Positions 29,768-47,327 of a stretch of DNA of 47,327 nucleotides are shown piece after piece. Position 1 is the stretch's first letter, and each line of letters starts with the position of its first letter. Source of the stretch: Muribaculaceae bacterium (GTDB lineage Bacteria; Bacteroidota; Bacteroidia; Bacteroidales; Muribaculaceae); NCBI GenBank assembly GCA_022510445.1, contig JAFLTN010000004.1:1-47327 (forward strand). The letters run 5' to 3'. The notes under the pieces are model-generated. The model searched no databases, was not told the DNA's origin, and saw only the letters and a program-made list of their open reading frames with translations. The translations under genes and the position numbers were made by a program.

Positions 29768-31060
29768 CTATCGTCCGGTCGCTATGAGGTAAGCTGAAAG
29801 AGCGGTCCGGTAGTTTCCGTAAGCTGTTATATAACGGTCTTGTGCCTCTTTATGGCTTGTTTCGGCCTCCAGAAGATCGGAAATCGTGCACATGCCCGCC
29901 TCATAATACATCCGGTTAAGATATAGGTTTTCATTACTCTGGGCAATACCCTCTTTCTCTATCTCCATTTTACGGTGAGCGGCCGTCAGATTGTTCCATT
30001 TGTCTTGCATCCCTATCATCAGTTCCTCCGATAGATTTTCAAGTTCGTTTTTTGCATTGGCCAGTTCAAGCGACCTCCTTTTCAAGGCGTAAGAGCCGCC
30101 CCACCATCCCGAGAGAGGGATCTCCACTCCTATCTGTATGGCACCAAAGTTATGGTTCTGGTCAAACAGATCATGATAATACCACCCGGCTCCGACAGCC
30201 ACTGACGGAAGATTGTTGCCCAGTTCCATCCTTTTCTCAAGTTTCTTGGCCTCCACATTCTTCTGTAAAAGACGATAGTCTGCCGTTAAAGGCAACGCAT
30301 CCGGAGCAGGCGTATAGACTTCATAAGGATAAGCCGGTATCTCTTCAGGGACCGTGCCGGTGATTTCAATATCTCCGGCAACACCGAGCCCGATATATTG
30401 GCCTAAAAGCATCTTCACCAGAAGAATTCCGTTATCAAGGTCAACCAACTCCGATTTATATGTATTGCGTTTTAGCTGTACCTTCAGAAGATCGTTTCGG
30501 GTAACAAGCCCTGCGTCAACAGCCACTTTTACCTGATAGTCAAGGGTGTCGAGCAGAGAAAGTGCAGTCAGAAGAGTCTCCTTGGTCGATTTGAGCGTAG
30601 TAAGTTTCCAAAAGAGGGTTTCGGTGGTAAGGCGCAGCTCATCGTCAGTCTGGCTTTTTCGAAGTCGCGCCACCTCCTCTCCTACTTCCGCCAGCTTATT
30701 GCCGTTGACTATGCGTCCACCTGTAAAGACCGGTTGCATTGCCTGGATTCCGGCAGCCTTGCCGTTCTTAATCAGTCCTAATTCCACAATATCAAGAAGA
30801 TTATACTGCAGAATGTCATGATTTGCCCAGAAAACCAAACCTGTGGCTGCAAACTCCGGGAAATATTTGGTAAAGGCTTCACGCTTCAGTTGAACTGCTG
30901 CCTCTATATTGTTTTTTGCCGAAATGGATTTCCGGTTTTTCTCAAGTGCCATCTCCACACATTGTTCCAATGTGAGAGGAGATCTGTTCTCTTGTGCTTG
31001 CAATCCCGAAAATAAGCAAAGCAGCAAAAACGGAATAATATATTTTTTCATCCTGATCAA
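29768..31060 (-). CDS. TolC family outer-membrane efflux protein
   Basis: Signal peptide, LTLEQCVEMALEKNRKSISAKNNIEAAVQ, MYYEAGMCTISDLLEAETSHKEAQDRYI. Confidence 0.9.
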   Translation of the reverse strand: MIRMKKYIIPFLLLCLFSGLQAQENRSPLTLEQCVEMALEKNRKSISAKNNIEAAVQLKREAFTKYFPEFAATGLVFWANHDILQYNLLDIVELGLIKNGKAAGIQAMQPVFTGGRIVNGNKLAEVGEEVARLRKSQTDDELRLTTETLFWKLTTLKSTKETLLTALSLLDTLDYQVKVAVDAGLVTRNDLLKVQLKRNTYKSELVDLDNGILLVKMLLGQYIGLGVAGDIEITGTVPEEIPAYPYEVYTPAPDALPLTADYRLLQKNVEAKKLEKRMELGNNLPSVAVGAGWYYHDLFDQNHNFGAIQIGVEIPLSGWWGGSYALKRRSLELANAKNELENLSEELMIGMQDKWNNLTAAHRKMEIEKEGIAQSNENLYLNRMYYEAGMCTISDLLEAETSHKEAQDRYITAYGNYRTALSAYLIATGR

Positions 31061-31103
31061 AATTTAATTGCCCTTGCGTTTCAACGTTATTTTGCAACGG
31101 GTC

Positions 31104-34100
31104 TTAGAGAAGATGCGTTTCGAGGGGTTCCTGCAACGGTTGGTCAGCACCTTTTATTCTCTCTTTTATCATACCGTAAGCCACAGGAATCACTGTCAAT
31201 ATAAATATCATTGTGATGGGAGTACCCCAGAAAATCACCACTCCCATAGGTTTCCATAAGGCACTGTCACCTATAATCATCGGGAGCACACCCATTGTAG
31301 CGGCGGCGGAAGTGAGGAAAATTGGCCTCATTCTTCTCATGGAAGCATGATAGATGGCATCTTTTGAGGTCATTCCCTGGTTTCTGAGTTCCTCGGCATA
31401 ATCCAGCAACACAATGGCATTTCTAACAAGGATACCCATCAGTGAAACTATCCCCAGCACACAAGTCAGTGAAATACTCACCGACTGTATTCTAAGTCCG
31501 ATGGCCGCTCCCGGGATTGTAAGCAACAGACACAGGAGAAGGAGAACTGCCGTATCCACCTGTGCATAATGCAACATAAGTATAAAGAATATGATAACCA
31601 CAGCGATCACGAGTCCCAATCCTATTTCCGGAAGGGTTTCCATAGTGTTCTCCCAATCGCCTCCTCTTGTCATGGTCACACCCTCCGGGATCTCAATCTT
31701 GGATACAATGCTGTCCATTAACGCTTCGGTGCGTTCTATCACGTTGATATCCCTCTGCACGTCAGCCAGCAAAGAAACAGTCGGGACTCCGCTGTAATGG
31801 GTCAGGGTTCCGGGATTTACTTGTCCCCGCAATCCGGCAACCTGACTTAGAGGCACATGGCCTATAAGGTTCACCGGCACAGGTTCATCCATCAGTTGTT
31901 CGGGTGTACCTGCATTTGCTCCTGAAGTCTTAAGCACCACCGGTATTCCATAGTCACCCTCCCACATTGTGGCGGCAGGGAGTCCCGGACTATATCTCAT
32001 GGCAAGCGTAGCTTCAAGAATTGTCGGATTGAGTCCGAGCCTCTGCGATCTCACGGGATCAAGCTCCACAAGAGCCGACATGAGGGGATTCCCAAGTGAG
32101 GAATGGACATTCCTCAACCCCGGCACATTCCTTGCTATTCCGATCACGGAATCGCAAATCTGAGCGAGTTTTGACTGGTCTTCTCCGGAAAAACGGATTT
32201 CAATCGGATTGGCGGCAGTGGAATAGCTCAATTGCTTGAAACGTATAAGGGCATCTGCAAACCAACCTTCATATTTGTCGGTATATCTGTTTAATACATC
32301 AATTGTGGCCTGATTGCTCTTTGTGTTCACTATGAACTGTGCATAATTCGGCCCTCCTATCTGAGGAGCGTAGGTGGTCTGGAAACGTGGTGATGAACAT
32401 CCGTGAAAAGATGCGATCGAAACAACCTCCGGATCTTTTGAAAGTATTCTTTCCAGAGAATCTGCAATTTCAGAGGTTTTCTCCAAAGATGTTCCGGTGG
32501 GCATGAATATCTCTACGGCAAACTGATTTCTTTCCGCAATCGGCATCAGCTGCATCGGAGTCTTAACAAACAGCAATCCGCCTAAAATCACACACAATAC
32601 ACCGGTGGCTATGGTGGTTTTCGGCCAAGCGAAACATAGTCTTATCAAACCGTCATAACCTTTCTGCATCACGGAAAAAATTGTGAATTTCTTCTTGCCG
32701 GTCTTCAGAGCCTCCTCCTGAAGCTTATATATAGGTTTCTTGATCAATTTATACTGAAGAAAGGGCACAAGTAATTCGGCGATAATTAGCGACACAAACA
32801 GAATGATTGTAAGTCCCCACGGAAAGTCATTGAGAAAATCACGGAACATTCCCTTGATAGTAAACAGGAATGGGAAGAATGTAATGGATATGGCAAGTGT
32901 TGCCGAAAAAATGGCTTTAAAAAATTCGGTTCCGGCACGCAGGGTCGCTGTGAAATGATCAATCCCTTCTGATATAAGTTCCACATAATCATCGATAATC
33001 ACCACAGAGTTGTCAACAATCATACCAAGCGACAGAATAAGACACGCAAGTGTCACCGTGTTCAGCTCAATCCCGAAAGCGTAGAAGAGGGCCAAAGATA
33101 TGAATATGGAGATAGGGATTGTCATGGCTGCAATCAATGCCACCTTTAACGGGAGCAATATCATTATGACAACCACTACCGCTATCACTGCAATCAGAAG
33201 TTCCACCAAGAAATAATTCACCGAACTGTTTACAACTACGGGTTGGTCGGTTATGTTGAAGAGGGTCACCGATTCCGGCAGGCTTTCCTTAAACTTATCA
33301 ATCCTTGATTGAACCTCTTTTCCCATTTCCACCACATTATAACCATCTTTCATCCCGATGCTCAGAAGGATACATTTCTTGAAATTGTTGGTTATATAGC
33401 TTTCCGGTTTGGGATATTCCCGCTTAATTTCAGCTATGTCTCTGAGCCTTAGTAGATTCCCTTCAGGAGGACTCATCACCACCATATTTGCCACATCCTC
33501 AAGGTTCCTGACCGCGCGGGCCACATAAACCGGAGTGGTGAAATCCCCCTGCTTCAGTTCTCCGCCTGTCGTCTTGAATCCCTGTGCGAGCAGAGTGGCG
33601 CCGAGGGTCCCTTCATTCAATGCATAATGCTGGAGTTTCTTCGGATCCAGATAGACCGAGACCTGTTCTTTCTGTTCTCCGGTAACCGTCATACTGCCGA
33701 CACTCTCCACCGGTCTAATCGCATCCTTAAGCCTTTCCATGTAATCATGAAGCTCCCGGTAAGTCTTGTCGGCACTCTGCATTGTGATCAGAAGAGAGGA
33801 AGTAGCTCCGAAATCGCTTATTGTCTCTACTGCGAGCACTCCCGGAGGCAGTTTCAGCTTCTCCTGCTCCATTCCGATCTTGAATTCATTCCAGAAACTG
33901 TCGGTGTCTTCAGTGTCGGCATCAAGTTCCACAAAAATTATCACCATTCCTGAAGTGACCTGAGCATGAGTCTTTCCCTTGTTCACCTCCTTATATGAAA
34001 AGATATAATCTTCAAGAGGCTTCAGCACCTCCTCTTCCATCTGGCGGGTGGAAGCTCCGGGATAAACCGCCGCCACAACTCCCTCCCTGATTGTGAAGGA

Positions 34101-34310
34101 AGGAAACTCCTGTTTCTGCATCTCATAAAGAGCATACACTCCCAAAGCCATCAGCATTGACAGGATCAGAATAATTTCCTTGCTGTATTTCATTCCCATC
34201 TTCACGATGGGGTTCGCCTTCGGAGCTCCCGGAGGAGCATCGTGGCCTTGCTGGAAATCGGCGGAATTAACCTGTTGGCTGCTATTGTTGTTATCAGTTT
34301 CCATGGTCAT
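31104..34310 (-). CDS. RND efflux transporter permease (AcrB/MMPL-type)
   Basis: 1068 aa; AVYPGASTRQMEEEVLKPLED, SLGMIVDNSVVIIDDYVE, LVRNAIVLLDYAEELR. Confidence 0.95.
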   Translation of the reverse strand: MTMETDNNNSSQQVNSADFQQGHDAPPGAPKANPIVKMGMKYSKEIILILSMLMALGVYALYEMQKQEFPSFTIREGVVAAVYPGASTRQMEEEVLKPLEDYIFSYKEVNKGKTHAQVTSGMVIIFVELDADTEDTDSFWNEFKIGMEQEKLKLPPGVLAVETISDFGATSSLLITMQSADKTYRELHDYMERLKDAIRPVESVGSMTVTGEQKEQVSVYLDPKKLQHYALNEGTLGATLLAQGFKTTGGELKQGDFTTPVYVARAVRNLEDVANMVVMSPPEGNLLRLRDIAEIKREYPKPESYITNNFKKCILLSIGMKDGYNVVEMGKEVQSRIDKFKESLPESVTLFNITDQPVVVNSSVNYFLVELLIAVIAVVVVIMILLPLKVALIAAMTIPISIFISLALFYAFGIELNTVTLACLILSLGMIVDNSVVIIDDYVELISEGIDHFTATLRAGTEFFKAIFSATLAISITFFPFLFTIKGMFRDFLNDFPWGLTIILFVSLIIAELLVPFLQYKLIKKPIYKLQEEALKTGKKKFTIFSVMQKGYDGLIRLCFAWPKTTIATGVLCVILGGLLFVKTPMQLMPIAERNQFAVEIFMPTGTSLEKTSEIADSLERILSKDPEVVSIASFHGCSSPRFQTTYAPQIGGPNYAQFIVNTKSNQATIDVLNRYTDKYEGWFADALIRFKQLSYSTAANPIEIRFSGEDQSKLAQICDSVIGIARNVPGLRNVHSSLGNPLMSALVELDPVRSQRLGLNPTILEATLAMRYSPGLPAATMWEGDYGIPVVLKTSGANAGTPEQLMDEPVPVNLIGHVPLSQVAGLRGQVNPGTLTHYSGVPTVSLLADVQRDINVIERTEALMDSIVSKIEIPEGVTMTRGGDWENTMETLPEIGLGLVIAVVIIFFILMLHYAQVDTAVLLLLCLLLTIPGAAIGLRIQSVSISLTCVLGIVSLMGILVRNAIVLLDYAEELRNQGMTSKDAIYHASMRRMRPIFLTSAAATMGVLPMIIGDSALWKPMGVVIFWGTPITMIFILTVIPVAYGMIKERIKGADQPLQEPLETHLL

Positions 34311-34318
34311 TTTCCGGT

Positions 34319-35368
34319 TTATTCTGTTGTCACGATTGTGCCGGTCCCCACTTTCTGCATACCGGCAACTATCACTGAATCTCCGGGTTGAAGCCCGGAT
34401 TTCACAATCACTCCATTCGCCACCAGTTCATCTGCCTCCACGAATCGTCGTTCGGCTCTGCCGTTCCTTACGGTCCATACAAAAAGCCTGTTGTCTTCAT
34501 TCAGAAGAACTGCCTGTGTGGGGAGCACTATTTCTCTTACCTCTGGACTATCGGGCTCCAATGCTTCAAACCTTACATTTCCCGTCATTCCCGGTAATAT
34601 TTTCCCGTTTGACGACGGTATGGCAACCTTGACGGTGTAGGAACGTGTAAGAGGATCCGCAACCACTGCTTTTTGAGTAATTTTTCCCTCGATATTCTTT
34701 AAGTCGTCCCGATCAAAACTAACCGTCGCCTTTTCACCCTCTGAAAAATTACCGATTGCGTTTTCTGAAACTGACACATCTATTGTCAGATCGTTGGTAG
34801 AGACGATCTCATAAATCGGTTCTACCGGCACAACAGTCTGACCCACATCTGCAAACTTCTTGGTAACGGTGCCGCTTACCGGTGAATATAAAGTTGCATC
34901 CTTCAGAGTGCGCTGAGCCATTTCGGCAGCATTTTCAGCCTGTTTAAGCTTTTGCTGCATCTCCACCCATTTCACCTCCGGCAGAGCATTCGCGTCATGG
35001 AGCTTTTTCAGCCGCTGATAGCCGTCTTGCGCTTCTTCAAGTTGTGCCAGGGCTATATTGTAGGCATTCTCATATTCCCCTGCCCTGACTTTACCTAGCA
35101 ATTGACCTTTACTGACTTTCGCCCCTTCAGCCACAGCCAGTTGGGTAATGGTTCCCCCCACTGCAAAACTCACATTGGTTGTCTCGGCAGATGAAACGAT
35201 TCCAGAATATTCCCTATCTGATGTCTGAAGTGTTCCGGAAACCTTCTCGACAGTAACCTTCACAGGGGGCGATAACGTTGCCTTTTCTTTTTTTGCACAG
35301 GATATCAAAACATTTCCTGCCAATAAACCAAATGCGGCCCATAAAAAGGCGCTGACACCGACTTTCAT
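34319..35368 (-). CDS. RND efflux periplasmic adaptor (membrane fusion lipoprotein)
   Basis: Lipobox-like NVLISC; GGTITQLAVAEGAKVSKGQLLGKV, YSPVSGTVTKKFADVGQTVVPVEPIYEI. Confidence 0.92.
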   Translation of the reverse strand: MKVGVSAFLWAAFGLLAGNVLISCAKKEKATLSPPVKVTVEKVSGTLQTSDREYSGIVSSAETTNVSFAVGGTITQLAVAEGAKVSKGQLLGKVRAGEYENAYNIALAQLEEAQDGYQRLKKLHDANALPEVKWVEMQQKLKQAENAAEMAQRTLKDATLYSPVSGTVTKKFADVGQTVVPVEPIYEIVSTNDLTIDVSVSENAIGNFSEGEKATVSFDRDDLKNIEGKITQKAVVADPLTRSYTVKVAIPSSNGKILPGMTGNVRFEALEPDSPEVREIVLPTQAVLLNEDNRLFVWTVRNGRAERRFVEADELVANGVIVKSGLQPGDSVIVAGMQKVGTGTIVTTE

Positions 35369-35666
35369 TTCGCAGATTAAATTAGTAGTTAAGTGAATAG
35401 TGCCCGGCGGAAAAAACGGATCATCCAGATTTCCGCCATTCAGTTAATAATGCATTAATTTTTGCAAATATAAGTTTATTTTTGTTTTTATGGCACAGGT
35501 TTTGAATAATTATTTTTCACTTCTTGTTCACGACTTTGCTGCCGTGCAATTTTATACCTCTTTGATACGTTATTACTCTAATGGACCCTTGCGTTAACAG
35601 TTTTTGAGAAGCAGGATCTATACATCAATTTTAAATCTCTTCTCATTTTCAGATTCTGAATTTCTT

Positions 35667-37037
35667 ATGTTTCTATATAGCAACAAGTTGCGAAGTTTGG
35701 TTTGGGGTGTACTCTGCAGTTCGATTTTAATTGTCTCAGCCCAGCAATTAAACATTGAAACCACACCCAAAACCATGGATATTCTCTCGCAGTTCGAAAA
35801 CAGGTTCAATGTCCTCGATTCGGTTATTTTTCAGTCGCCTGAAAGAGACCGGTTTTATTCGGAGATTTTTGATTCCGTGTTTTTTGAATTTGCGGAAATG
35901 GAACGCGTGCCTCAGATTGATGCCGAAACCGACGCCAGGATCAGCGCGCTGAAAAACCGCACGGGACTCGAATTCCGCGGTCAGGCTTATGTCCGTCCCG
36001 GACATAACATAAGCTATGATCCCGATGATCCCTTAGTGGCTTACAATGCAAAGGTGCAGGCTGAAATCCAATGGAATATCTTCAACAGTTCGGTCTATAA
36101 ACGGAAATCCCGCATAAAAGAGCTCACTATTCAGGGAGAACTGGATCAGCTGAACTTTGTGAAGAACGACCTCGACGAGCAGATAATGTTCCAGAAACAG
36201 CAGGTAAGATTCCGTCATTACGGCAGAATGCTTTCGATCTATAACCTGCATTACGAGAACCTGAGGCTACTTATGGAGACCCAGGTCTATCTTCTCGAAC
36301 ATGGAAAGATTTCGGGCGATGATATGCTCAAACTTATCAATGAACAGATGGAGATTGAACGGCAGTTAGTTTCCATCAAGGCCGACTCAGTGGTCAACGA
36401 GCTCCCGGCGCCCACGTCTATCGCCTATATCTCTCTTACCGATACTGCCGGAATTTTCAGAAGCATCAAGCACAACAACATAGAAATTAAAAAGTTAGGA
36501 TTAAGACATGAGCTCCTTGATCTGAAAAAACAAAACACCGACTATGTGCAGACAATGGATATACTTCCTTTCGTAAGATATTCTTACTACAACAGGGAAA
36601 ATGTCCATAACACTTATAACCTCGACGTGGGGGTTTCTTTCCGTCTTCCAATCTCCAAGGAAGTTTCCAAACAGCGCAAGGTTCTTGCAGCCCAGCAAGA
36701 TGTGCTGGCCTATGAGCAGCAACTGCTCGAGAGCGAGACTACCAACGGAATTTTCCTCACTTTCCATGACCTGGAGATTTATAATGAAAATATCCTCGGG
36801 GAATTCCTCAGGATGAAAAAACTTAAGGAATATCTGGAAATGAGAAAAACCAGCTATTATAATGTCGACGGAGAATATTCAAGGATCGACCGTCTCCGGG
36901 AATACAATGCCTATCTCCAGGCCTGGGAACGGCTGATGGAATATTCCTACCGGCGAGATATGATACTCCTCGACCTCCAGCGTTATCTGTTGACAGAACC
37001 TATTAGCAATTATATACAATTTAAAGAATATTACTGA
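35667..37037 (+). CDS. TolC-like outer-membrane channel/coiled-coil protein
   Basis: Signal peptide MFLYSNKLRSLVWGVLCSSILIVSAQQ from ATG 35667; long coiled-coil helices and LDVGVSFRLPISKEVSKQRKVLAAQQDVLAYEQQ typical of TolC barrel/helix transition. Confidence 0.7.
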   Translation: MFLYSNKLRSLVWGVLCSSILIVSAQQLNIETTPKTMDILSQFENRFNVLDSVIFQSPERDRFYSEIFDSVFFEFAEMERVPQIDAETDARISALKNRTGLEFRGQAYVRPGHNISYDPDDPLVAYNAKVQAEIQWNIFNSSVYKRKSRIKELTIQGELDQLNFVKNDLDEQIMFQKQQVRFRHYGRMLSIYNLHYENLRLLMETQVYLLEHGKISGDDMLKLINEQMEIERQLVSIKADSVVNELPAPTSIAYISLTDTAGIFRSIKHNNIEIKKLGLRHELLDLKKQNTDYVQTMDILPFVRYSYYNRENVHNTYNLDVGVSFRLPISKEVSKQRKVLAAQQDVLAYEQQLLESETTNGIFLTFHDLEIYNENILGEFLRMKKLKEYLEMRKTSYYNVDGEYSRIDRLREYNAYLQAWERLMEYSYRRDMILLDLQRYLLTEPISNYIQFKEYY

Positions 37038-37045
37038 TTCAACAT

Positions 37046-38545
37046 ATGCAGTCTTTCAGTTTTAAATCCAACCTGAATGAAAATGAGAATGTCGAGAAAC
37101 TGATTAAGGAACGCAACCGCAAGATAGCTCGTCAGCAGGTAATCTTTGCAATCATTCTCCTCATTATCATCGGTCTATTGGTTTGGTATCTTTTCCGTAA
37201 AACTATATACACGGAATTCGACGGTTTCATGCACACCGAATATAAAGACTACCGGGCCGTTGAAGACATCTACCTCTTCGACCAATACACAGAAGAGGGT
37301 GATATCGTTGTGCCGGGTGACACCCTTTATTCCTACACATATATAAATATGTTCGGATCCGGCAATGGCGGTTCCCAACCGGATATCTTTATCAAGAACC
37401 GGGATCTGCGGCTCCAGCGCGACAATGCCTACAACGAAGCCAATGTGCTTAAGGTCAGGATTGCCGAACTCGAGGCTCAGATACAGCGCGAAGACAACAA
37501 CATCCGCTTCGGGATGACCGATAATTCCCATAAGATGGATCTTGAGCGCCAGCTTGCCGTTGCAAAGGCAGAACTCACAGCCACGCTGAACCGTGCCTAT
37601 CGGCTTGGAAGCATACACAACGAGAATAACACCGTCATTGCCGGAGCGGCACAATACGGAATTGACTTCTCCAACGAACAGTGGGGACTCGACCATGCTC
37701 TCCGTCAACTTTATGAATCAAATGCTCCGATTATCAGGTATGCAGTTGCCCAGGACACTGCTATAGTCACAAAGATCTGGGCCCCATCTTTTTCCCGCGT
37801 GTTCAAGAAGGAACATATCCTTCAGCTTGAAGAGCTAAGCTTCGAGAAAAGCAATGTTCAGGTAATTGCCTGGGTGCCTACGCAGGATATGGGAAAGATC
37901 AACAATAACACCCGTGCTGAAATCATCGTCAACGATGATGTTTCCTTCATGGCAAGCGTCCAGCTTTTGGGTGCCCGTACGGAAGATCTCCCGGAAGAAC
38001 TCCGGAATAATCTTTCGCATACCTATACTGCCGTAATGGTTGTTTTCGCACCCGACCGTGATCAGGTCCTCCCTCTTTGGGCTGTCGTTGACCGGGTGCC
38101 TGTGAGAGTGCGAATCAAGAACTACGAAAACGGCTACCGTGGTGACGGTTCCGATTACTGGTATATCGACAACGATGGTCTCACGGATATTTCAAAACAT
38201 TTTTTAGGTCTGATCCGCGAACGTTCAAAGGGTCGTTACCGTTATGATCCCAATAAAAACACAGAATCACCGGTTCAGGACCCACCTGCCAAAACCGAAG
38301 GTAAAAAGTCGCCTGAAAGTCCGGTTTTGGAAAAGAAAACCGACACTTTGCCGGATTCCGTGCCGCAAAACGACACTACATCTTCAAAACTGGCTTATCA
38401 TTTGCATACGATAAAAGATGGAGAAACCCTTTATGGGCTTTCCCAGCAATATAAAGTAAGTATTAATAAGATTTTAGACCTGAATCCTGATATCGACAAG
38501 AGATTTAAAAAAGGGGCGAAGGTCAAAATCCCTGTTTTAAATTAA
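37046..38545 (+). CDS. HlyD-like membrane fusion protein with C-terminal LysM domain
   Basis: N-terminal cytosolic stretch, single TM (VIFAIILLIIIGLLVWYLF), coiled-coil RLQRDNAYNEANVLKVRIAELEAQI..., adaptor beta domain, LysM YHLHTIKDGETLYGLSQQYKVSINKILDLNPDIDKRFKKGAKVKIP. Confidence 0.8.
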   Translation: MQSFSFKSNLNENENVEKLIKERNRKIARQQVIFAIILLIIIGLLVWYLFRKTIYTEFDGFMHTEYKDYRAVEDIYLFDQYTEEGDIVVPGDTLYSYTYINMFGSGNGGSQPDIFIKNRDLRLQRDNAYNEANVLKVRIAELEAQIQREDNNIRFGMTDNSHKMDLERQLAVAKAELTATLNRAYRLGSIHNENNTVIAGAAQYGIDFSNEQWGLDHALRQLYESNAPIIRYAVAQDTAIVTKIWAPSFSRVFKKEHILQLEELSFEKSNVQVIAWVPTQDMGKINNNTRAEIIVNDDVSFMASVQLLGARTEDLPEELRNNLSHTYTAVMVVFAPDRDQVLPLWAVVDRVPVRVRIKNYENGYRGDGSDYWYIDNDGLTDISKHFLGLIRERSKGRYRYDPNKNTESPVQDPPAKTEGKKSPESPVLEKKTDTLPDSVPQNDTTSSKLAYHLHTIKDGETLYGLSQQYKVSINKILDLNPDIDKRFKKGAKVKIPVLN

Positions 38546-38561
38546 TCCAATTCAGACAATT

Positions 38562-40022
38562 ATGCCAACCGGCCCGTCATATAAGATAGTAACCAATTCC
38601 CGGAAACGTCGCATCCTGGTAGTCAATAGGATGGTGAACCCGGGTCAGATCGATGAACTCGAAAACGAAGACTTCGATGCCATATTCCTGAATGTGGCCA
38701 ACCGCACCTATGAGGAGACGCGGCTTGTGTCGCGCTGGCTCTCTCCCACGCGCGAAGGCAAAAGCTTCCTTAAGCCTCGTTTCGGTAATGTCGACATGCA
38801 GAACTTCATGCGTCAGGTGGTCGATTTTTTCGACGGCCTATGCGACAACCCTCTGGATGAGACTTTTGCCAACAGAATCGAGGAGATTTATCAGAATATT
38901 GAAAAATATGGCATAAACCGAGATATCGGGTCTGATATCTCCACCACCTCCCGCCTGCTTGCCAATCTTGTTAAATATGATATTACAAGAGGGCGTCTCA
39001 CATTCACCAACCATGCCATCAGAGGTCTTGCGCAAGGTTTCTCCAACCGCTACCTGATGATGTATGACAACCATGAGACGCTCCAGCTCGACGAGAGAAT
39101 GAAATTTGTGCAGAAACTCGAAGAACTGGGCTATGCCGAACGCACCCGTCTTGTCGACCGTATCCATATATGCAAGGAATGTGGCGACTCCCATCAGCTC
39201 TTTATCGAGTGCTGCCCCAAATGTAAAAGTTCGGATATCCAGCAGGAATCGATGATTCATCATTTCCGCTGCGCCAACATCTCGCCTGAATCCACCTACT
39301 TCAAGGATGGCGCTCTCGTGTGTCCCAAATGTCGCAGGACTCTCCGGCATATCGGCGTAGACTATGACCGGCCCGCCACTGTGTTCAGCTGTTTCTGCGG
39401 AAACACTTTCATGCAGTCGGCAATGAAAGTAATGTGCACAAACTGCAGCCACATTTCAACGCCTGAAGAGCTCATACCGACAGATGTCTATGAATACAAG
39501 CTTACTCCTGCCGGAATCGCAGCTTTCGCTTCCGACGAGGCTATCTTCCAGCTTGAAAGCACCGACATCTATTCCGGTCGCTCCACATTCGAAAATTTCT
39601 GTGAGTCGATCAGAGTCTTCCATACGTTGCCTTCATACGAAAACCAGACTATCCTCGTGTTCCGTTATCACTATGTTTATAACGGCACCCAGGAAGATGC
39701 CCAGGTTTTCGATGTCATGCGCAATATCATGATGCATAACGCGACCGTGAAGCTTACCACGAACGACAATAATTTCTATGTGTTGCTTGTAGCCCCTTCC
39801 GGAAAGATCGATGCCGAATATAAATTTGCCAAGACCAATCTCGACCGGATTTTCAACGAACTCTCTGAAGAAAACGAGGAATTCGATGCCCGTTGGCTGA
39901 AAACCTACAGGTTTAACCGAGATCAGGATCCTGATGAATTCGTGAAGGAAATCACGGAAAAAATCGAAGACAGCATGCTCGAGGATCTTCATGAAATTTC
40001 GGATAACAATCCTGCCGACTAA
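38562..40022 (+). CDS. TackOD1-like metal-binding protein with N-terminal receiver-like segment
   Basis: Six Cys motifs between 39171 and 39446: CKEC, CCPKC, HHFRC, CPKC, CFC, CTNC, plus LRHIGVDYDRP; N-term RRILVVNRMVNPGQIDELENEDFDAIFLNV looks REC-like. Confidence 0.65.
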   Translation: MPTGPSYKIVTNSRKRRILVVNRMVNPGQIDELENEDFDAIFLNVANRTYEETRLVSRWLSPTREGKSFLKPRFGNVDMQNFMRQVVDFFDGLCDNPLDETFANRIEEIYQNIEKYGINRDIGSDISTTSRLLANLVKYDITRGRLTFTNHAIRGLAQGFSNRYLMMYDNHETLQLDERMKFVQKLEELGYAERTRLVDRIHICKECGDSHQLFIECCPKCKSSDIQQESMIHHFRCANISPESTYFKDGALVCPKCRRTLRHIGVDYDRPATVFSCFCGNTFMQSAMKVMCTNCSHISTPEELIPTDVYEYKLTPAGIAAFASDEAIFQLESTDIYSGRSTFENFCESIRVFHTLPSYENQTILVFRYHYVYNGTQEDAQVFDVMRNIMMHNATVKLTTNDNNFYVLLVAPSGKIDAEYKFAKTNLDRIFNELSEENEEFDARWLKTYRFNRDQDPDEFVKEITEKIEDSMLEDLHEISDNNPAD

Positions 40023-40063
40023 TTCTTAATCCTTTCTCCTTCCTCCATTAATCCTGACTTTTT

Positions 40064-41437
40064 ATGGACTGGCTTACCAACATACTCCATTTCATAGTGG
40101 GCGGTTTCCAATGGTTTGTAAACCACGCCATGATGATTTATTACGACATCGAGATGTGTTTCTCGCGTAATGTCAGCATGGACACCCTCCTTACCCTATA
40201 TTGGTTCCTTTTCCTTGTGGAATTCCCACGTTATTATCTTCTGGAGATTTTCCTGGCGATACGTTATGCCATACTCAAACCCTTCCGGAAGAAGACCGAC
40301 AATATGGCCCGGATGGTCCTGTTCTCTGAAAATCCCCTGGTTTCTGTATTGGTGCCGGGTAAGAATGAAGGGAAACACATCTATAAACTTGTGATGAGCC
40401 TCCGGGAACAGACCTATACCAATTTCGAGATTATCGTGGTTGACGACGGTTCGGACGACGACACCCCTTATATCTGCAGCAATCTCGAAAAGAACGGCTT
40501 CATCGATAAATATATCCGGATGGATGAACGTGCCGGCAAAGCCGGGGCTGCCAACCTTGGTGCAAGCTTCGCCAAAGGGAAATATATAGTTCATCTTGAC
40601 GCAGATTCATCACTCGACCGTAATGCCATCGAGGAGATCCTCATTCCTTTCTACACCGACAAGAAGGTTAAGGCAGTGGGAGGCTGCGTCAAGGTCAGAA
40701 ATTCCAAGGCAAACATCTGCACCTCACTTCAGGCCCTCGAATACCTTAAGACTATCATGGTGGGCCGTATGGTTACGAGCGAGCTCGGCATTTACCATAT
40801 CATCTCCGGTGCTTTCGGCGCCTTCGAACGGGAAACACTGGAAAATATCGGCTATTGGGACATCGGTCCCGGTCTTGACGGCGACATCACACAGAAAGTG
40901 CGCAAAGCCGGTTATAAGGTCACTTTTGCTAAAGATGCCGTCTGCATGACGAATGTGCCTGAAAGCTGGTATCGTCTTTACGTGCAGCGCAGGCGATGGT
41001 CAAGGTCTCTGGTAAGGTTCCGTATCAGGAAACATAAGGATATCCTTCTTCCTAACCGTAACTGGCGGTTCATCAACTGGCTTTCGAACATGGAGAGTAT
41101 CTTCTACGATTGCATATGCAATTATATGTGGTTCTATTATCTCATCGGACTACTCTTCACTTATACCGACCGGCTGCTGGAAATTATGGTTGTGGCGTGG
41201 CTCATCCGACTTGCGTTTACGATCATCGCCTTCGGAGTTATCATGCTTATCACCGAGCGTCCGCGTGAGGAATTGCATCTGATCAAGTATCTTCCGCTCT
41301 CTACTTTCTACACAGGTTATTTCCTGAGAGTGACCCGACTGATCGGTTACACCACGGAATTCTTCTTCTTCAATTCCTATCGCGACAAGTGGAATCCGCG
41401 CAAAACTTCCATCTGGGCACAGGCAGAGGTCAACTGA
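40064..41437 (+). CDS. Processive family 2 glycosyltransferase, membrane-integrated polysaccharide synthase
   Basis: VLVPGKNEGKHIYKLVMSLREQTYTNFEIIVVDDGSDDD, LDADSS, GPGLDGDIT, QRRRW; flanking TM helices at both ends. Confidence 0.9.
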   Translation: MDWLTNILHFIVGGFQWFVNHAMMIYYDIEMCFSRNVSMDTLLTLYWFLFLVEFPRYYLLEIFLAIRYAILKPFRKKTDNMARMVLFSENPLVSVLVPGKNEGKHIYKLVMSLREQTYTNFEIIVVDDGSDDDTPYICSNLEKNGFIDKYIRMDERAGKAGAANLGASFAKGKYIVHLDADSSLDRNAIEEILIPFYTDKKVKAVGGCVKVRNSKANICTSLQALEYLKTIMVGRMVTSELGIYHIISGAFGAFERETLENIGYWDIGPGLDGDITQKVRKAGYKVTFAKDAVCMTNVPESWYRLYVQRRRWSRSLVRFRIRKHKDILLPNRNWRFINWLSNMESIFYDCICNYMWFYYLIGLLFTYTDRLLEIMVVAWLIRLAFTIIAFGVIMLITERPREELHLIKYLPLSTFYTGYFLRVTRLIGYTTEFFFFNSYRDKWNPRKTSIWAQAEVN

Positions 41438-41495
41438 CCTAACCTTAAATGATGTTAAGAAAGGTTTAAATAATTATAGTATAAGAAAATTAATT

Positions 41496-41503
41496 TAACT
41501 TTG
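41496..41503 (+). promoter_or_regulatory. -7 promoter element (TAACTTTG) for first lipoprotein
   Basis: TAnnTTTG match 51 bp upstream of ATG 41555; shows that the ORF-track start at 41501 is too early. Confidence 0.5.
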
Positions 41504-41554
41504 CGGTCGCGCATGAAAAAATCAAATCCAACAGAAAGACAAAATAAAATTACA

Positions 41555-43153
41555 ATGAAGAAGCATTTTTACCTTATAGCAGCACTTGGTTTAGGCATAG
41601 TCTCCTGTACCGATTCCGACCTCAAAAACGACGGATCCCAAGATAACATTACATCCGGGCAGGAATCAGACATCGCTAAACTCACTACTATTAAGTTGAA
41701 CTCATCTAATAGTTCACAAGATAGGATTAATGTTTATCCTTCCACAAGAGATGAAAACTCTGAAAAACCTCTGGAATTAATTGCCGAGATAAAAAATATC
41801 TCTGAAGATGAAAATTTTGATGGTTTCACTAAAGAAGACCGTCTGCTCTCAGCAACCTGTGTATATTATGATAAGGAGACACAGACTTATTACGCTACTT
41901 ATCACATGCAGGGTAATAACTATTATACCGATCAGGAAATAGAAACTTCAGGATATATTGAATCTTTCCAAATTGAAGGAAATACTCCTAAACTTGAGAA
42001 AATTTATTGGGCAGCTGATGCATCCGGCAAGACTTATGATTTCAACCACCTGTACTTTGATGACCTTAATAAAATTGAATATGTAGGAGAATATACGGGC
42101 GACAAATCTGAAGGAACCAGAATTATTGTAGCAGGTCATAGTTCCGAACCGGTGAAAACCGGAACAGGTTTTAATACCAAAGCCATAATTGGCAAGATTG
42201 ATTTTGAGCAAGAGAGCTTGACAGTTGCCGACGTTATGACTGGAGACAAAATCTACGATGAAAATATCACCAATAAAGATGGTTCTCTTGCATCCTTAGG
42301 AGATGAAGACGCCGCCGATGTCAACTGTGTTGTGCGTAAATACAATCATTATTACCTTACAACTCGCAAAGGTGTTGCAGTTTTAAAAGCAGGCAAAGAA
42401 AATCTTTTCCAACCGGAGACTGACGTCAATGACAAAATCTATTTCTTGAAAACTCCCGGTTCTGCAAAGTTCATTAGCCAACCAACATTTACTTCAGGTG
42501 TTGACATTCTCTATCTTACACAATACAACCCAGAAGAATTAACAAAAGACACTTCCAGTCCGGCTAATGTGATTCAATTTGCTTTAGATACAACTGATGG
42601 AAAGGATTTGCCTATCCATATGAACGATGTAGACAATTTCAGTTGGAGTAATCTTATTTCTCCAAATCAACTTCTACTTGGAAACATAGAATCTATTTCA
42701 CCGGTTGACGGAAAAAATGTATTGGTTGCCAGCAGCAATAATACAGGAGCAATTTATACTTGTCTTGGCAGAAATGGCTTATATGTATTTAATCCCACAT
42801 ATGACTACAAACAGGATGAAATCATAAAATTCACAGATGCAAAAGAAGGGAATACCTCACGTCCGGTAAATGGAATATATGTTGAGGATTGGGATGATTA
42901 TAATGGACATCATTACACTGATGGCTTCATTTATGTAGCCAATGGTGCCTGCCTAACCATTTTAGATGCAAAAACACTTGAAAAGGTAGCGGAGTACAGT
43001 GCATTTGATGGTACAAATGCAATTTCAGCCAACTATGTTCATGTGGTTAAATCAAATACTTACACAAATGAACATGTTCCAGACAGAATCATCACTGTTG
43101 CTTATGGACAGGCCGGTGTGAAAGTCTTCAGGTTTGTGCCTCCAACAAAATGA
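41555..43153 (+). CDS. Lipoprotein, predicted beta-propeller-like (LVIVD-like repeats), paralogue A
   Basis: Lipobox MKKHFYLIAALGLGIVSC; C-terminal FIYVANGACLTILDAKTLEKVAEYSAFDG...DRIITVAYGQAGVKVFRFVPPTK. Confidence 0.8.
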   Translation: MKKHFYLIAALGLGIVSCTDSDLKNDGSQDNITSGQESDIAKLTTIKLNSSNSSQDRINVYPSTRDENSEKPLELIAEIKNISEDENFDGFTKEDRLLSATCVYYDKETQTYYATYHMQGNNYYTDQEIETSGYIESFQIEGNTPKLEKIYWAADASGKTYDFNHLYFDDLNKIEYVGEYTGDKSEGTRIIVAGHSSEPVKTGTGFNTKAIIGKIDFEQESLTVADVMTGDKIYDENITNKDGSLASLGDEDAADVNCVVRKYNHYYLTTRKGVAVLKAGKENLFQPETDVNDKIYFLKTPGSAKFISQPTFTSGVDILYLTQYNPEELTKDTSSPANVIQFALDTTDGKDLPIHMNDVDNFSWSNLISPNQLLLGNIESISPVDGKNVLVASSNNTGAIYTCLGRNGLYVFNPTYDYKQDEIIKFTDAKEGNTSRPVNGIYVEDWDDYNGHHYTDGFIYVANGACLTILDAKTLEKVAEYSAFDGTNAISANYVHVVKSNTYTNEHVPDRIITVAYGQAGVKVFRFVPPTK

Positions 43154-43179
43154 CTTTGATTTTTTATTTTCATATTTTG

Positions 43180-43218
43180 AGCATCGCGGAGTTTTCTCCC
43201 CGATGCTTTTTATTTTAC
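43180..43218 (+). terminator. Rho-independent terminator
   Basis: AGCATCG-C-GGAG TTTT CTCC-C-CGATGCT hairpin followed by T-rich run. Confidence 0.8.
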
Positions 43219-43419
43219 AAAAGCATTCCGGCCTTTCATTCATACCCCGGCAAGTTTCGCGTTGCTTCACATATGCTGAGTTCACCGAAGAAATCACTTC
43301 CGGGGAATTTACCATTAGTTTTAAATTACTTGAATCTGATTTTTCTAAACTTCTAATAATAAATTTCAAAAAAATCCTAAAAATTTATTTGAATTTTTAA
43401 AATATTTGAAAGTTTTTTA

Positions 43420-43427
43420 TAACTTTG
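43420..43427 (+). promoter_or_regulatory. -7 promoter element (TAACTTTG) for second lipoprotein
   Basis: TAnnTTTG match 48 bp upstream of ATG 43476. Confidence 0.5.
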
Positions 43428-43475
43428 CAAATTAATTTGAGTGAAAAGCGAAAATAAAAACCAAACACAATACAA

Positions 43476-45137
43476 ATGAAAAAGCATTTATTCTTGATGG
43501 CCGCTCTCGGATTGGGGCTGGCTGCTTGTACGAATGATGTACTGACTCCGGAGGACAATGCTAACATTACCTCTCCCGATCAGGAAAATTCAACCTCAAC
43601 GCTAAAATCAGCGAAACTTAAATCTTTTGACGCTTCACCTGACCGTGTCAAAGTAGAACCCCAGACAAGAGATGCTCAACCCGGTTCTCTTACGCTCATT
43701 GCATCAATTACAAACCCATCCACTCAAGAGGGGATTATCAATGGCTTCCAAAAAGAAGGCGAAGAGGGACGTTATCTTTCAGCAACTTGCGTATATTTTG
43801 ATTCATCAGATGATAAATATTATGTAACATACCATATGCAAGGTAATAACTATTTAACCGATCAAATTGATGAAACTTCCGGTTTTATAGAAACCTTTAC
43901 CCTACAAGAGGATGGTACACCAAATCCCGGTAAAATATATCAAACCGCTGAACCTTCTAAAGTTGATTTTGATTTCAATCATCTTTATTTTGATGTTTTA
44001 AATGACGATTATTTAAGTTATACAGGTGCTGATGCCGGACAGAAAAGAATAGTAGCAGCCGGTCATATTGCAGTTCCCACCTCTACCGGAAAATATGACA
44101 CCCATGCTATGATTTCACAACTTGATCTTGAAAATGAAGAAATTGCATATACGTTAGTTTTAACTGGAGAAAAGCTTTTAAACGAAGAAGGTAAATCTTT
44201 AGGCGACATAGATGCAGGCGACGTTAATTGTGTTTTAAGGAAAAGCAATTATTATTATCTTGCGACCCGTAAAGGAATTGCAGTTTTAAATGCAAAAGAT
44301 GATAATTTATTTACACCGATTAACAATATAGAAACCATAGAAAATGAAAATGGCCAAAAAACAAGCACTGTCATCGAAAATAGCACATATTTTGTAAAGA
44401 CTCCGGGCTCAGCAAAACACTTATCTCATATTTATACTAATTCCCATTTCTCTTTACTTTATTTAACATCTCCAAATCCCTCAACAATAACTGCTGAAAC
44501 AAGTTCTCCGGCTAATATTATAAATTTCAGCATGGATCAAGGAAGTGGCACTTTATGTGGTTCAGACACCAGCGACTCAAATACTGAGGGCCCGGGAATA
44601 TTAAACTCATCAGATATAACTGATCTCACTCTATGGTCGCCGAATGTTAATCAATATACCATTCCTGAAACTAATATCTGTCCTGTGGATGGCAAGAATG
44701 TCTTGTCTCTGGCTGACAACAACAACTTAATTACTGCTTGTCTCGGGAAAAATGGATTATATGTAAATAATAAAGACAATCATAAGGAAGAGGTAATAAA
44801 ATTTAGCGATAAAAAAGACGGAACAGGTTCTCGTCCTGTAAATGGTGTATTTGTTGAAGGCATTGAATATTATGACGGAGGCAGAGCTACTAATGGATTT
44901 ATTTATGTTGCAAACGGTGCTTGCTTAACAATTCTTGATGCCGCAACTTTAGAAAAAGTAGAAGAATTTAGTGCTTTTGATGCTAAGGAAGATAAAAACT
45001 TAGCATCAGCAAACTATGTTCAGGTCGTTAAAACCAATACTTATACAAACCCCGCTTCACCAGACAGAATAATAACTGTCGCTTTTGGACAAGCCGGAGT
45101 CAAAGTATTTAGATTTGTTCCCCCTACATTAAAATAA
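43476..45137 (+). CDS. Lipoprotein, predicted beta-propeller-like, paralogue B
   Basis: Lipobox MKKHLFLMAALGLGLAAC; full-length similarity to 41555..43153 (LSATCVYFD, YHMQGNNY, FDFNHLYFD, GFIYVANGACLTILDAATLEKVEEFSAFD, RIITVAFGQAGVKVFRFVPPTLK). Confidence 0.8.
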   Translation: MKKHLFLMAALGLGLAACTNDVLTPEDNANITSPDQENSTSTLKSAKLKSFDASPDRVKVEPQTRDAQPGSLTLIASITNPSTQEGIINGFQKEGEEGRYLSATCVYFDSSDDKYYVTYHMQGNNYLTDQIDETSGFIETFTLQEDGTPNPGKIYQTAEPSKVDFDFNHLYFDVLNDDYLSYTGADAGQKRIVAAGHIAVPTSTGKYDTHAMISQLDLENEEIAYTLVLTGEKLLNEEGKSLGDIDAGDVNCVLRKSNYYYLATRKGIAVLNAKDDNLFTPINNIETIENENGQKTSTVIENSTYFVKTPGSAKHLSHIYTNSHFSLLYLTSPNPSTITAETSSPANIINFSMDQGSGTLCGSDTSDSNTEGPGILNSSDITDLTLWSPNVNQYTIPETNICPVDGKNVLSLADNNNLITACLGKNGLYVNNKDNHKEEVIKFSDKKDGTGSRPVNGVFVEGIEYYDGGRATNGFIYVANGACLTILDAATLEKVEEFSAFDAKEDKNLASANYVQVVKTNTYTNPASPDRIITVAFGQAGVKVFRFVPPTLK

Positions 45138-45155
45138 AATTCTGCTAAATACTAT

Positions 45156-45196
45156 AAAGAGCCGGCAAGTTCAATGTCGGCTCTTTATTTTTATTC
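45156..45196 (+). terminator. Rho-independent terminator
   Basis: AAAGAGCCGGCA (45156-45167) / TGTCGGCTCTTT (45175-45186) then T-rich tail. Confidence 0.88.
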
Positions 45197-45217
45197 TGAA
45201 TTTTTAACAGTAAAAAA

Positions 45218-45248
45218 TTGAAATAGGAGCTTATATTTATTATATTTG
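45218..45248 (+). promoter_or_regulatory. Promoter TTG-N20-TATATTTG
   Basis: TTG at 45218-45220 and TATATTTG at 45241-45248, upstream of ATG 45277. Confidence 0.5.
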
Positions 45249-45276
45249 CAGTTGGAAAAGTTCGCTTTGGAACAAA

Positions 45277-46575
45277 ATGATAGATAATAAACTAAAAATT
45301 GGCTTCGTAGGACTCGGTTACGCCGGGTTCCCGATGGCGTGTCTTTTCGCGGCTAAATACCCGGTAGTCGGCTTTGACCTGTCAAAAAGACGGGTGGCAG
45401 AACTCAATTCCGGTATCGACCATTGCGGCGATGTCACACGCGAAGAGATTGAATGTATGTTCGTCAACGGAGCCATCATTACATCCAACATATCCGACCT
45501 TCAGGACTGCAACGTGTTCATTGTGGCAGTTCCCACTCCGGTCGACAAAAACAACCGTCCTGACGTTTCATTCATCGCCAACGCAAGCAGAGAAGTAGGC
45601 AGCGTGCTTAAAAAAGGTGATATCGTAATCTACGAATCCACCGTATATCCGGGTGCCACCGAAGAGATCTGCGTTCCCGTTCTCGAAGAAACCTCAGGGC
45701 TGAAATTCAATGAAGACTTCTTTGTAGGATACTCTCCCGAAAGAATAAATCCCGGTGACAAGATTAACACACCCCGCAATGTCGTGAAGGTTACTTCCGG
45801 CTCCACTCCGGAGTCTGCGAAAATCATCAACGACATCTATGCCAACGTCTTGGGTAGGGAGCTCACCTTCCCCGCTTCCTCAATAAAAGTTGCCGAGGCA
45901 TGCAAAGTAGTCGAAAATGCCCAGAGAGATGTCAACATAGCCTTCATCAACGAGGCGGCGAAAGTGCTCAACAGCATGGGGATTGACACCAACGAAGTGG
46001 TGGATGCTATGAACACCAAATGGAATTCCCTTGGATTCCGACCCGGATTCGTAGGCGGCCATTGCATCGGAGTGGATCCTTACTATCTCATCGACCGTGC
46101 AAAAATGCAGGGAGTCGACACTCATCTTATGACATCGGCGAGGAAGATCAACAACTCAATGGCAAAATATGTGGTCGATAAAGTTGTTGAGAAACTCCGT
46201 GAAAGGTTTGGCAAAGATATCCACGAAGCTCGTGTCCTCATCTTAGGTTTCTCATTTAAAGAGAATTGCCCTGACGTAAGGAACAGCAAAATCTACGACG
46301 TATATCGTCTCATGAAACAACACACCAAGAACGTAACTATCTACGATCCGGTTGTTGACAGCGAATTGGTTCGAAATTTGTATCACTTAACAATCAGTAC
46401 TAATCCACGGCAGATATCACGTTACAAGTATGATGCCATCTTGCTGTGCGTTGCCCATCAGGCGTTCAAAAACCTGAATATAAAGCAACTTTGCGCAGAA
46501 AAAGGATTTGTTTACGACATAAAAGGTTTTTATCCTTTAAAATCGTTCAAATCTTTGACAATGGAACGAATATGA
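45277..46575 (+). CDS. Nucleotide-sugar dehydrogenase (UDP-HexNAc/UDP-glucose 6-dehydrogenase family, TviB/WbpO-like)
   Basis: IGFVGLGYAGFPMACLFA, ESTVYPGATEE, YSPERINPGD, GFRPGFVGGHCIGVDPYYL, LGFSFKENCPDVRNSK. Confidence 0.92.
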   Translation: MIDNKLKIGFVGLGYAGFPMACLFAAKYPVVGFDLSKRRVAELNSGIDHCGDVTREEIECMFVNGAIITSNISDLQDCNVFIVAVPTPVDKNNRPDVSFIANASREVGSVLKKGDIVIYESTVYPGATEEICVPVLEETSGLKFNEDFFVGYSPERINPGDKINTPRNVVKVTSGSTPESAKIINDIYANVLGRELTFPASSIKVAEACKVVENAQRDVNIAFINEAAKVLNSMGIDTNEVVDAMNTKWNSLGFRPGFVGGHCIGVDPYYLIDRAKMQGVDTHLMTSARKINNSMAKYVVDKVVEKLRERFGKDIHEARVLILGFSFKENCPDVRNSKIYDVYRLMKQHTKNVTIYDPVVDSELVRNLYHLTISTNPRQISRYKYDAILLCVAHQAFKNLNIKQLCAEKGFVYDIKGFYPLKSFKSLTMERI

Positions 46576-46679
46576 GAAATTTAACAAGGAGAAACAAATC
46601 AAAATTTTAGACAAAGGAAATTTAGATGAAAGAGTTAAATAAAAAGATTTCAAACAACTTAAAGAATCATAATATATCT

Positions 46680-47327
46680 ATGAAGTTAAAATTTTTAATG
46701 TTTGGGGGAGTCATCCTTGCGATGACAGCATGTTCGGATGACAATCTCTCCAATGGAGGTGACAACAATCTTCCCTCCGAATCAACTCTGAACACCGCTT
46801 CATACTCAGTCAATGCGGCAAACACATCGCGTGTATTCAATTATGGCAACGATGGAGTCGGCACCAGAGCTCAAGATGAAGAATTTGTAATGCCCGACTA
46901 CCCGGCTGCAAGAGCTGCCGCCGCTCAAGATATCCAGTCAGGTTGGTTTCCTGCTTCTGGAGATTATAAAGTTTCAGGAAACTCAAGCGTCCAAATGAAT
47001 GCATCAGGGGATGTTAATCTTTTCATAGTTGGGGACTTTAACGGAACTTTAGAAATCAATAATGGCAATTTGAATATTTATGTAGCTCCGGGAGTAACAT
47101 ATACCATACCGAGCAGTGGCCAAATTTTAACACGTGCATATAATCTATATGTTTATGGGAATTTAGATGTTCCATCAAATTTTTATATTAAAGATAATCA
47201 ACATGTTTATATTTTAGGAGATTTAGATGTGACCAATTACATTGAAACATCCGGAAATCAATATAGCCTAAATGTAAAAGGAGGAATACATGCCAAGAAA
47301 TTTAATTCTCTTAACTCAAATTTAAAT
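46680..47327 (+). CDS. Lipoprotein with beta-solenoid-like repeats, 3' truncated by window end
   Basis: Not in ORF track because no stop. ATG 46680 (alternative in-frame ATG 46626) gives MKLKFLMFGGVILAMTACSDDNLSNGG with lipobox; frame read by hand is open to 47327; repeats DVNLFIVGDFNGTLEINNGNLNIYV...NLYVYGNLDV...HVYILGDLDV. Confidence 0.7.
   Translation, partial: MKLKFLMFGGVILAMTACSDDNLSNGGDNNLPSESTLNTASYSVNAANTSRVFNYGNDGVGTRAQDEEFVMPDYPAARAAAAQDIQSGWFPASGDYKVSGNSSVQMNASGDVNLFIVGDFNGTLEINNGNLNIYVAPGVTYTIPSSGQILTRAYNLYVYGNLDVPSNFYIKDNQHVYILGDLDVTNYIETSGNQYSLNVKGGIHAKKFNSLNSNLN

Follow-up and report, generated by a model that had tools for sequence, protein, structure and literature searches.

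What does a TolC/HlyD-type pair of envelope proteins do when its genes lie beside that of a processive polysaccharide synthase? This question is raised by an operon of a Muribaculaceae bacterium, contained in the stretch of DNA analysed here (the window), which corresponds to the entire contig C257 (47,327 bp), part of a draft genome of 2.73 Mb. Starting at position 35,667, the operon is read rightwards and continues past the contig end; its first four genes encode a TolC-like outer-membrane protein (OEP), a HlyD-type periplasmic adaptor, a TackOD1 protein and a family 2 glycosyltransferase (GT2). Our results make it likely that it specifies a synthase-dependent system for exopolysaccharide synthesis and export, similar to the Mxd system of Shewanella oneidensis. 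The TackOD1-GT2-HlyD(-TolC) combination is a genuine cross-phylum polysaccharide synthesis/export module, conserved and largely uncharacterised, yet with precedents.

One line of evidence for this conclusion is the clustering of the module genes, which is far beyond chance. With the Pfam PF18551 cut-off (32 bits) as the detection threshold, TackOD1 was patchily distributed: the family yielded 12 positive genomes among 198, the order 7 among 246 and the phylum 10 among 297, with the genome of the window counted each time. In all 27 Bacteroidota loci examined (12 of the Muribaculaceae family and 15 from elsewhere) a GT2 gene immediately adjoins the TackOD1 gene and an adaptor gene belongs to the cluster, while an OEP gene is present in 26; the only locus devoid of it, L035, is truncated by a contig end just upstream. 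The initial annotation had staked its proposal on the conservation of this four-gene order among relatives, which these counts bear out; what it missed was that the module reaches beyond Bacteroidota, that lipoproteins are associated with it and that the TackOD1 protein has a predicted regulatory role. The TackOD1-GT2-HlyD triad is kept in all 10 proteobacterial plasmid or secondary-replicon loci examined, its hosts including Palleronia, Roseibium, Phyllobacterium, Aminobacter, Methylocystis, Alisedimentitalea, Plesiomonas and Photobacterium (two copies). All four genes (TackOD1, GT2, TolC and HlyD) are carried by the Aeromonas caviae plasmid pKAM329_3 (L059), and the presence of the unit on such a small (29 kb) mobilizable replicon suggests that horizontal transfer is possible. 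Pairwise distances of the module partners are correlated (r 0.78-0.94, Mantel p<=0.001), a correlation to which shared host ancestry contributes. Among named relatives, Muribaculaceae bacterium HAN057 is the nearest that has the operon; its TackOD1 protein displayed 83% identity in a genome scan with this protein, and its locus is that of genome G711, from the window's genus. One genome (contig G451:C116) harbors two divergent copies of the module, L038 and L039, within ~15 kb.

In the window, the genes of the operon are arranged as follows:

35667..37037, plus strand: TolC-like outer-membrane protein (OEP), 456 residues, with an N-terminal signal peptide and a Pfam OEP match
37046..38545, plus strand: HlyD-type periplasmic adaptor, with a transmembrane anchor at residues 32-50, a barrel-sandwich/coiled-coil core and a C-terminal LysM at residues 454-483
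38562..40022, plus strand: cytoplasmic TackOD1 protein, with a REC-like N-terminus, a zinc-ribbon core, a C-terminal domain at the GGDEF-like position and no I-site (AxxK)
40064..41437, plus strand: processive-type GT2 polysaccharide synthase (PF00535), with catalytic motifs and flanking transmembrane segments
41501..43153, plus strand: lipoprotein 1, of a beta-propeller-like family, lipobox ...GLGIVSC
43476..45137, plus strand: lipoprotein 2, paralogue of lipoprotein 1, lipobox ...GLGLAAC
45277..46575, plus strand: UDP-sugar C6-dehydrogenase, by model scores TviB/WecC-like (UDP-HexNAc type) rather than Ugd-like
46626..47327, plus strand: third lipoprotein of the module-linked family, N-terminal part only, running off the contig end

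The first four genes are co-directional and tightly packed, with the domains originally claimed and gaps of 8, 16 and 41 bp between them; the OEP frame is listed from the ATG at 35667, and a TTG at 35604 is a possible alternative start. The dehydrogenase gene does lie downstream of the GT2 gene, as first described, with the correction that two paralogous lipoprotein genes, previously unlisted, sit between them, and a third is interrupted by the contig end. Domain searches of the window's open reading frames revealed no ABC, RND or MFS inner-membrane transporter within the operon, and none is recurrent in the related loci, in agreement with the view that no ABC or RND partner belongs to the unit. 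Directly upstream, at 29768-35368 on the minus strand, lies a divergent RND efflux operon (membrane fusion protein, RND pump and OEP); it has its own adaptor and channel and is not part of the polysaccharide unit.

The GT2 matches PF00535 at 8e-29, and its motifs D128, DxD 179-181, D272/D274 and QRxRW 308-312 do not vary among the 27 copies aligned, which represent three lineages; this confirms the earlier assignment to processive enzymes with D,D,D,QxxRW-type motifs and flanking transmembrane helices. Moreover, the family profile aligns with hyaluronan synthases over almost its full length. These properties are those of an inner-membrane polysaccharide synthase, one of the four features by which classical Gram-negative synthase-dependent systems are defined (PMC7112194). 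Two others of that definition are lacking in the window: no tetratricopeptide repeat (TPR) domain was matched in the operon proteins, the place of the TPR-pore being occupied by the TolC-like OEP and the HlyD adaptor, and the I-site motif for cyclic di-GMP (c-di-GMP) binding is absent, although it is present at the motif level in Gammaproteobacterial relatives. As for the periplasmic polysaccharide-modifying enzyme, a GH18-like domain is found in the OEPs of relatives and is absent from that of the window. Since the TPR-pore and c-di-GMP binding are both lacking, the operon represents a variant rather than a plain member of the synthase-dependent systems; the initial proposal of a synthase-dependent-type unit with TolC/HlyD-type proteins is supported.

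The window OEP narrowly passes its Pfam gathering score (25.5 bits versus 22), 12 of 17 family members match at E<=1, and the AlphaFold2 (AF2) model, with a pLDDT of 34, is uninformative on a trimeric beta-barrel fold. In Aeromonas and many Bacteroidota the OEP bears a C-terminal domain of ~230 residues that is weakly similar to GH18 and displays a G(I/V/L)HLD(I/V/L)E motif. Conceptually, this domain can be likened to BcsZ and PelA, which are periplasmic hydrolases; OEPs of the window's family lack it. The window adaptor displays one strong transmembrane helix (residues 32-50) and a LysM domain (2e-8), and by itself gives no match to any HlyD family in the domain search; across its family, 23 of 25 members match HlyD_3, and the family profile is nearest EmrA and type I adaptors. 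Adaptor C-termini within the window's family carry either LysM (window, L031 and L086) or SPOR (L036, L085 and, weakly, L077), and SPOR is also found in the L039 adaptor, outside this family; attachment to peptidoglycan was thus apparently gained on more than one occasion. Export of the putative polymer through this OEP is rather probable.

The TackOD1 protein of the window scores 150.7 bits against PF18551 and has no transmembrane segment. Its residues C204, C207, C218, C221, H233, C237, C254, C257, C277, C279, C292 and C295 are invariant in the family, the zinc-ribbon pattern of TackOD1 comprising 11 Cys and a His (PMC5847659). Pfam domains were detected as Response_reg in 7, the zinc-ribbon core in 26 and GGDEF in 7 of the 26 members, and the family profile, compared to structures, matched receiver domains at positions 9-134 and GGDEF at positions 324-430 (E 3e-10); in the NCBI annotation, the copies from Aeromonas and Plesiomonas are labelled diguanylate cyclases. 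On sequence grounds, the family protein is a predicted regulator with REC-like, zinc-ribbon and degenerate GGDEF parts, newly described here, and it is fairly likely that it regulates the GT2.

Regarding the signal, the GG(D/E)EF signature is lost in every aligned copy. All Gammaproteobacterial copies tested retain the RxxD of the I-site, which is reduced to xxxD in most other Bacteroidota and to xxxK in Muribaculaceae, the window copy having AxxK. In addition, a search of 15 TackOD1-positive Bacteroidota genomes, of which 14 are >=95% complete, yielded no GGDEF protein above the cut-off, the same search being positive in 8 of 14 control genomes. In profile comparisons with hhalign, the Gammaproteobacterial C-terminal domain aligned with a canonical diguanylate cyclase (92.4%) and with that of other Bacteroidota (88.6%, E 2.6e-6). 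The AF2 model of the TackOD1 protein (pLDDT 40) retrieved nothing at E<=0.001 in a Foldseek search and was not used as evidence, and neither were its sub-threshold matches (ribosomal S6 permutants, a diguanylate cyclase at E 0.04 and PelD at 0.13). Independence from c-di-GMP is probable in the window organism. The pattern probably reflects an ancestral c-di-GMP effector whose input was lost in Bacteroidota, with the opposite direction, a gain of the input in Gammaproteobacteria, as the alternative.

Receiver-type genes were observed near several copies of the module. An extra receiver-like protein of 109-119 residues is encoded between the adaptor and TackOD1 genes in four loci of one non-Bacteroidia clade (L043:10719-11045, L044:8988-9317, L045:10748-11104 and L047:10755-11111), in which the TackOD1 proteins bear a full receiver domain. 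In L038 and L040-L042, the OEP gene is preceded by genes for a LytTR response regulator and further receiver-type proteins, which points to regulation of the module by a two-component system instead of c-di-GMP.

From these components we propose a mechanism in which the inner-membrane GT2 would polymerise a UDP-activated sugar and thread the chain through the membrane, with the HlyD-type adaptor linking it to the TolC-like channel. The cytoplasmic TackOD1 protein would act as the regulatory partner of the GT2 and gate synthesis, presumably as a c-di-GMP-type effector in Gammaproteobacteria (degenerate GGDEF, intact I-site), whereas in Bacteroidota, above all in Muribaculaceae, that input would have been lost and control would probably be exerted via the REC-like domain or another signal. 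A UDP-(amino)uronic acid would come from the dehydrogenase, while at the outer membrane or cell surface the polymer is probably held or guided by the lipoproteins. We infer, in this scheme, the polymer, the export direction, the contact between TackOD1 and GT2 and the role of the lipoproteins.

The earlier implication that no characterised example exists was too strong, as Mxd has the same component list, and XcsAB-TolC and BgsBA constitute mechanistic precedents. In S. oneidensis MR-1, MxdA is a cytoplasmic c-di-GMP-binding effector with a degenerate GGDEF domain, MxdB a type II glycosyltransferase and MxdC an efflux-pump homologue, and deletion of mxdA or mxdB abolishes aggregation and biofilm structure (PMC3691769, PMC7666153, PMC3409153). 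Mxd joins a degenerate-GGDEF effector, a GT2 and an efflux/adaptor protein in one operon, a list found family-wide in the module, although the window copy diverges too far in its C-terminal domain to be assigned as GGDEF. The window operon differs from Mxd in encoding a TolC-like channel of its own, together with a dehydrogenase and lipoproteins, and in having a regulator devoid of the I-site; no GGDEF proteins are detectable in its genome. XcsAB-TolC, a tripartite exporter proposed for Thermosynechococcus cellulose, similarly combines a processive GT2, a HlyD-like adaptor and a TolC-type channel (PMC12430437), but its genes are scattered in T. vulcanus, its synthase is of BcsA/PilZ type, and no TackOD1 has been reported. 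The BgsBA pair of Sinorhizobium/Rhizobium, a GT2 with a HlyD-domain partner, makes a mixed-linkage beta-glucan (PMC9495663); it differs in being bicistronic, with c-di-GMP binding to the C-terminal domain of the glycosyltransferase and neither a separate regulator nor an OEP in the operon. A GT2-HlyD match in S. medicae (L058) has no full TackOD1 gene alongside. NfrBA-YbcH of E. coli shares a GT2-based, c-di-GMP-controlled exopolysaccharide synthase with its own outer-membrane pore (PMC8669469). It departs from the module in the MshEN domain fused to the glycosyltransferase and in the TPR-barrel NfrA, which takes the place of TolC/HlyD. The Pel system, as the module, has a separate degenerate-GGDEF regulator of the synthase, PelD, which is membrane bound and has a GAF domain, together with the TPR-porin PelB and the hydrolase PelA; parts of PelD, PelB or PelA type are absent from the window operon.

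Several observations weigh against an Mxd-like exporter with its own channel. Mxd membership is probable by analogy, as judged from the published component list, and the Muribaculaceae C-terminal domain alone is not detectably GGDEF-like: hhalign gave no match to its Gammaproteobacterial counterpart (0.2% probability), so the GGDEF assignment of the window copy is positional only. A TackOD1 protein without a GT2 neighbour occurs on a haloarchaeal plasmid (Haladaptatus salinisoli, L057), indicating that the domain is not restricted to this module; other haloarchaeal plasmids also match TackOD1, the neighbourhood having been inspected in L057 alone. Further, the TolC-docking RLS motif, RxxxLxxxxxxS/T (PMC3391258), is absent from the window adaptor and no more frequent in its family than in shuffled sequences, so docking, if real, would proceed through other contacts. 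This absence, and that of an adjoining OEP of this family from 9 of 10 proteobacterial loci, would also be consistent with GT2 and adaptor delivering the polymer only to the periplasm or the inner-membrane surface, from which it would leave by another exit, or with its retention in the periplasm, the OEP being an accessory. Such an arrangement is improbable given the OEP genes of the Bacteroidota loci and the Aeromonas plasmid, and in proteobacteria the channel can be a TolC whose gene lies at another locus, the arrangement suggested for XcsAB-TolC.

It is likewise unlikely that the adaptor and OEP serve an ordinary ABC, RND or MFS pump encoded elsewhere while the GT2 makes a glycolipid or modifies lipopolysaccharide. 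TolC/HlyD pairs usually serve pumps, and both the affinity of the adaptor profile to EmrA and type I adaptors and the proximity of the RND operon fit this view; that operon nevertheless has its own adaptor and OEP, the adaptor of the module accompanies TackOD1-GT2 in the 27 Bacteroidota and 10 proteobacterial loci, among whose regular members there is no pump gene, and in relatives the OEP is joined to a domain resembling glycoside hydrolases. The chance that the operon is a diverged poly-N-acetylglucosamine (PNAG), cellulose, alginate or Pel operon is very small. PgaC_IcaA is the best NCBIfam model for the GT2, but its 161 bits are far under the curated equivalog cut-off (422.3), and no TPR-porin, deacetylase, BcsB or BcsZ is found among the other genes, so that identity with any of these systems is largely refuted. 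The preferred reading is an Mxd-like synthesis and export system.

On this reading, the TackOD1 domain acquires a testable role, that of acting with a polysaccharide synthase, and the Mxd polymer of Shewanella is predicted to cross the outer membrane by a TolC-type route. For Muribaculaceae, which are common in the gut, an exopolysaccharide yet to be characterised is indicated, as well as a biofilm-type machine that retains a degenerate GGDEF-type regulator in genomes with no detectable c-di-GMP synthases. New here are the I-site loss in Muribaculaceae, the lack of GGDEF proteins above the cut-off in the 15 TackOD1-positive Bacteroidota genomes, the GH18-like OEP fusions in relatives, the LysM/SPOR adaptor ends, and the dehydrogenase and lipoproteins in the operon. 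More tentatively, and with the odds somewhat against it, the module might constitute an unrecognised cross-phylum exporter class, with TackOD1 as a regulator devoted to the synthase, converted in Bacteroidota from an ancestral c-di-GMP effector into one independent of c-di-GMP, and in which a new (amino)uronic-acid glycan leaves gut Muribaculaceae via a TolC-type tunnel.

The UDP-sugar dehydrogenase and the lipoproteins belong to the Muribaculaceae operon. The dehydrogenase gene is present in 15 of the 27 Bacteroidota loci and in 11 of the 12 from the Muribaculaceae family, which makes the (amino)uronic-acid-type precursor suggested earlier plausible. The enzyme scored 414 bits with the TviB model (cut-off 592), 230 with that of archaeal UDP-ManNAc dehydrogenase, 219 with WecC and 45-147 with Ugd-type models, and the nearest solved structures are UDP-HexNAc dehydrogenases; its predicted product is therefore more likely a UDP-HexNAc uronate than UDP-glucuronate, and the chance that the polymer contains an (amino)uronic acid is about even. 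The module-linked lipoprotein family is represented in 17 of the 27 Bacteroidota loci; the window proteins have no confident Pfam assignment, and one member from another locus (L040:12279-14237) carries a C-terminal DUF4114 domain.

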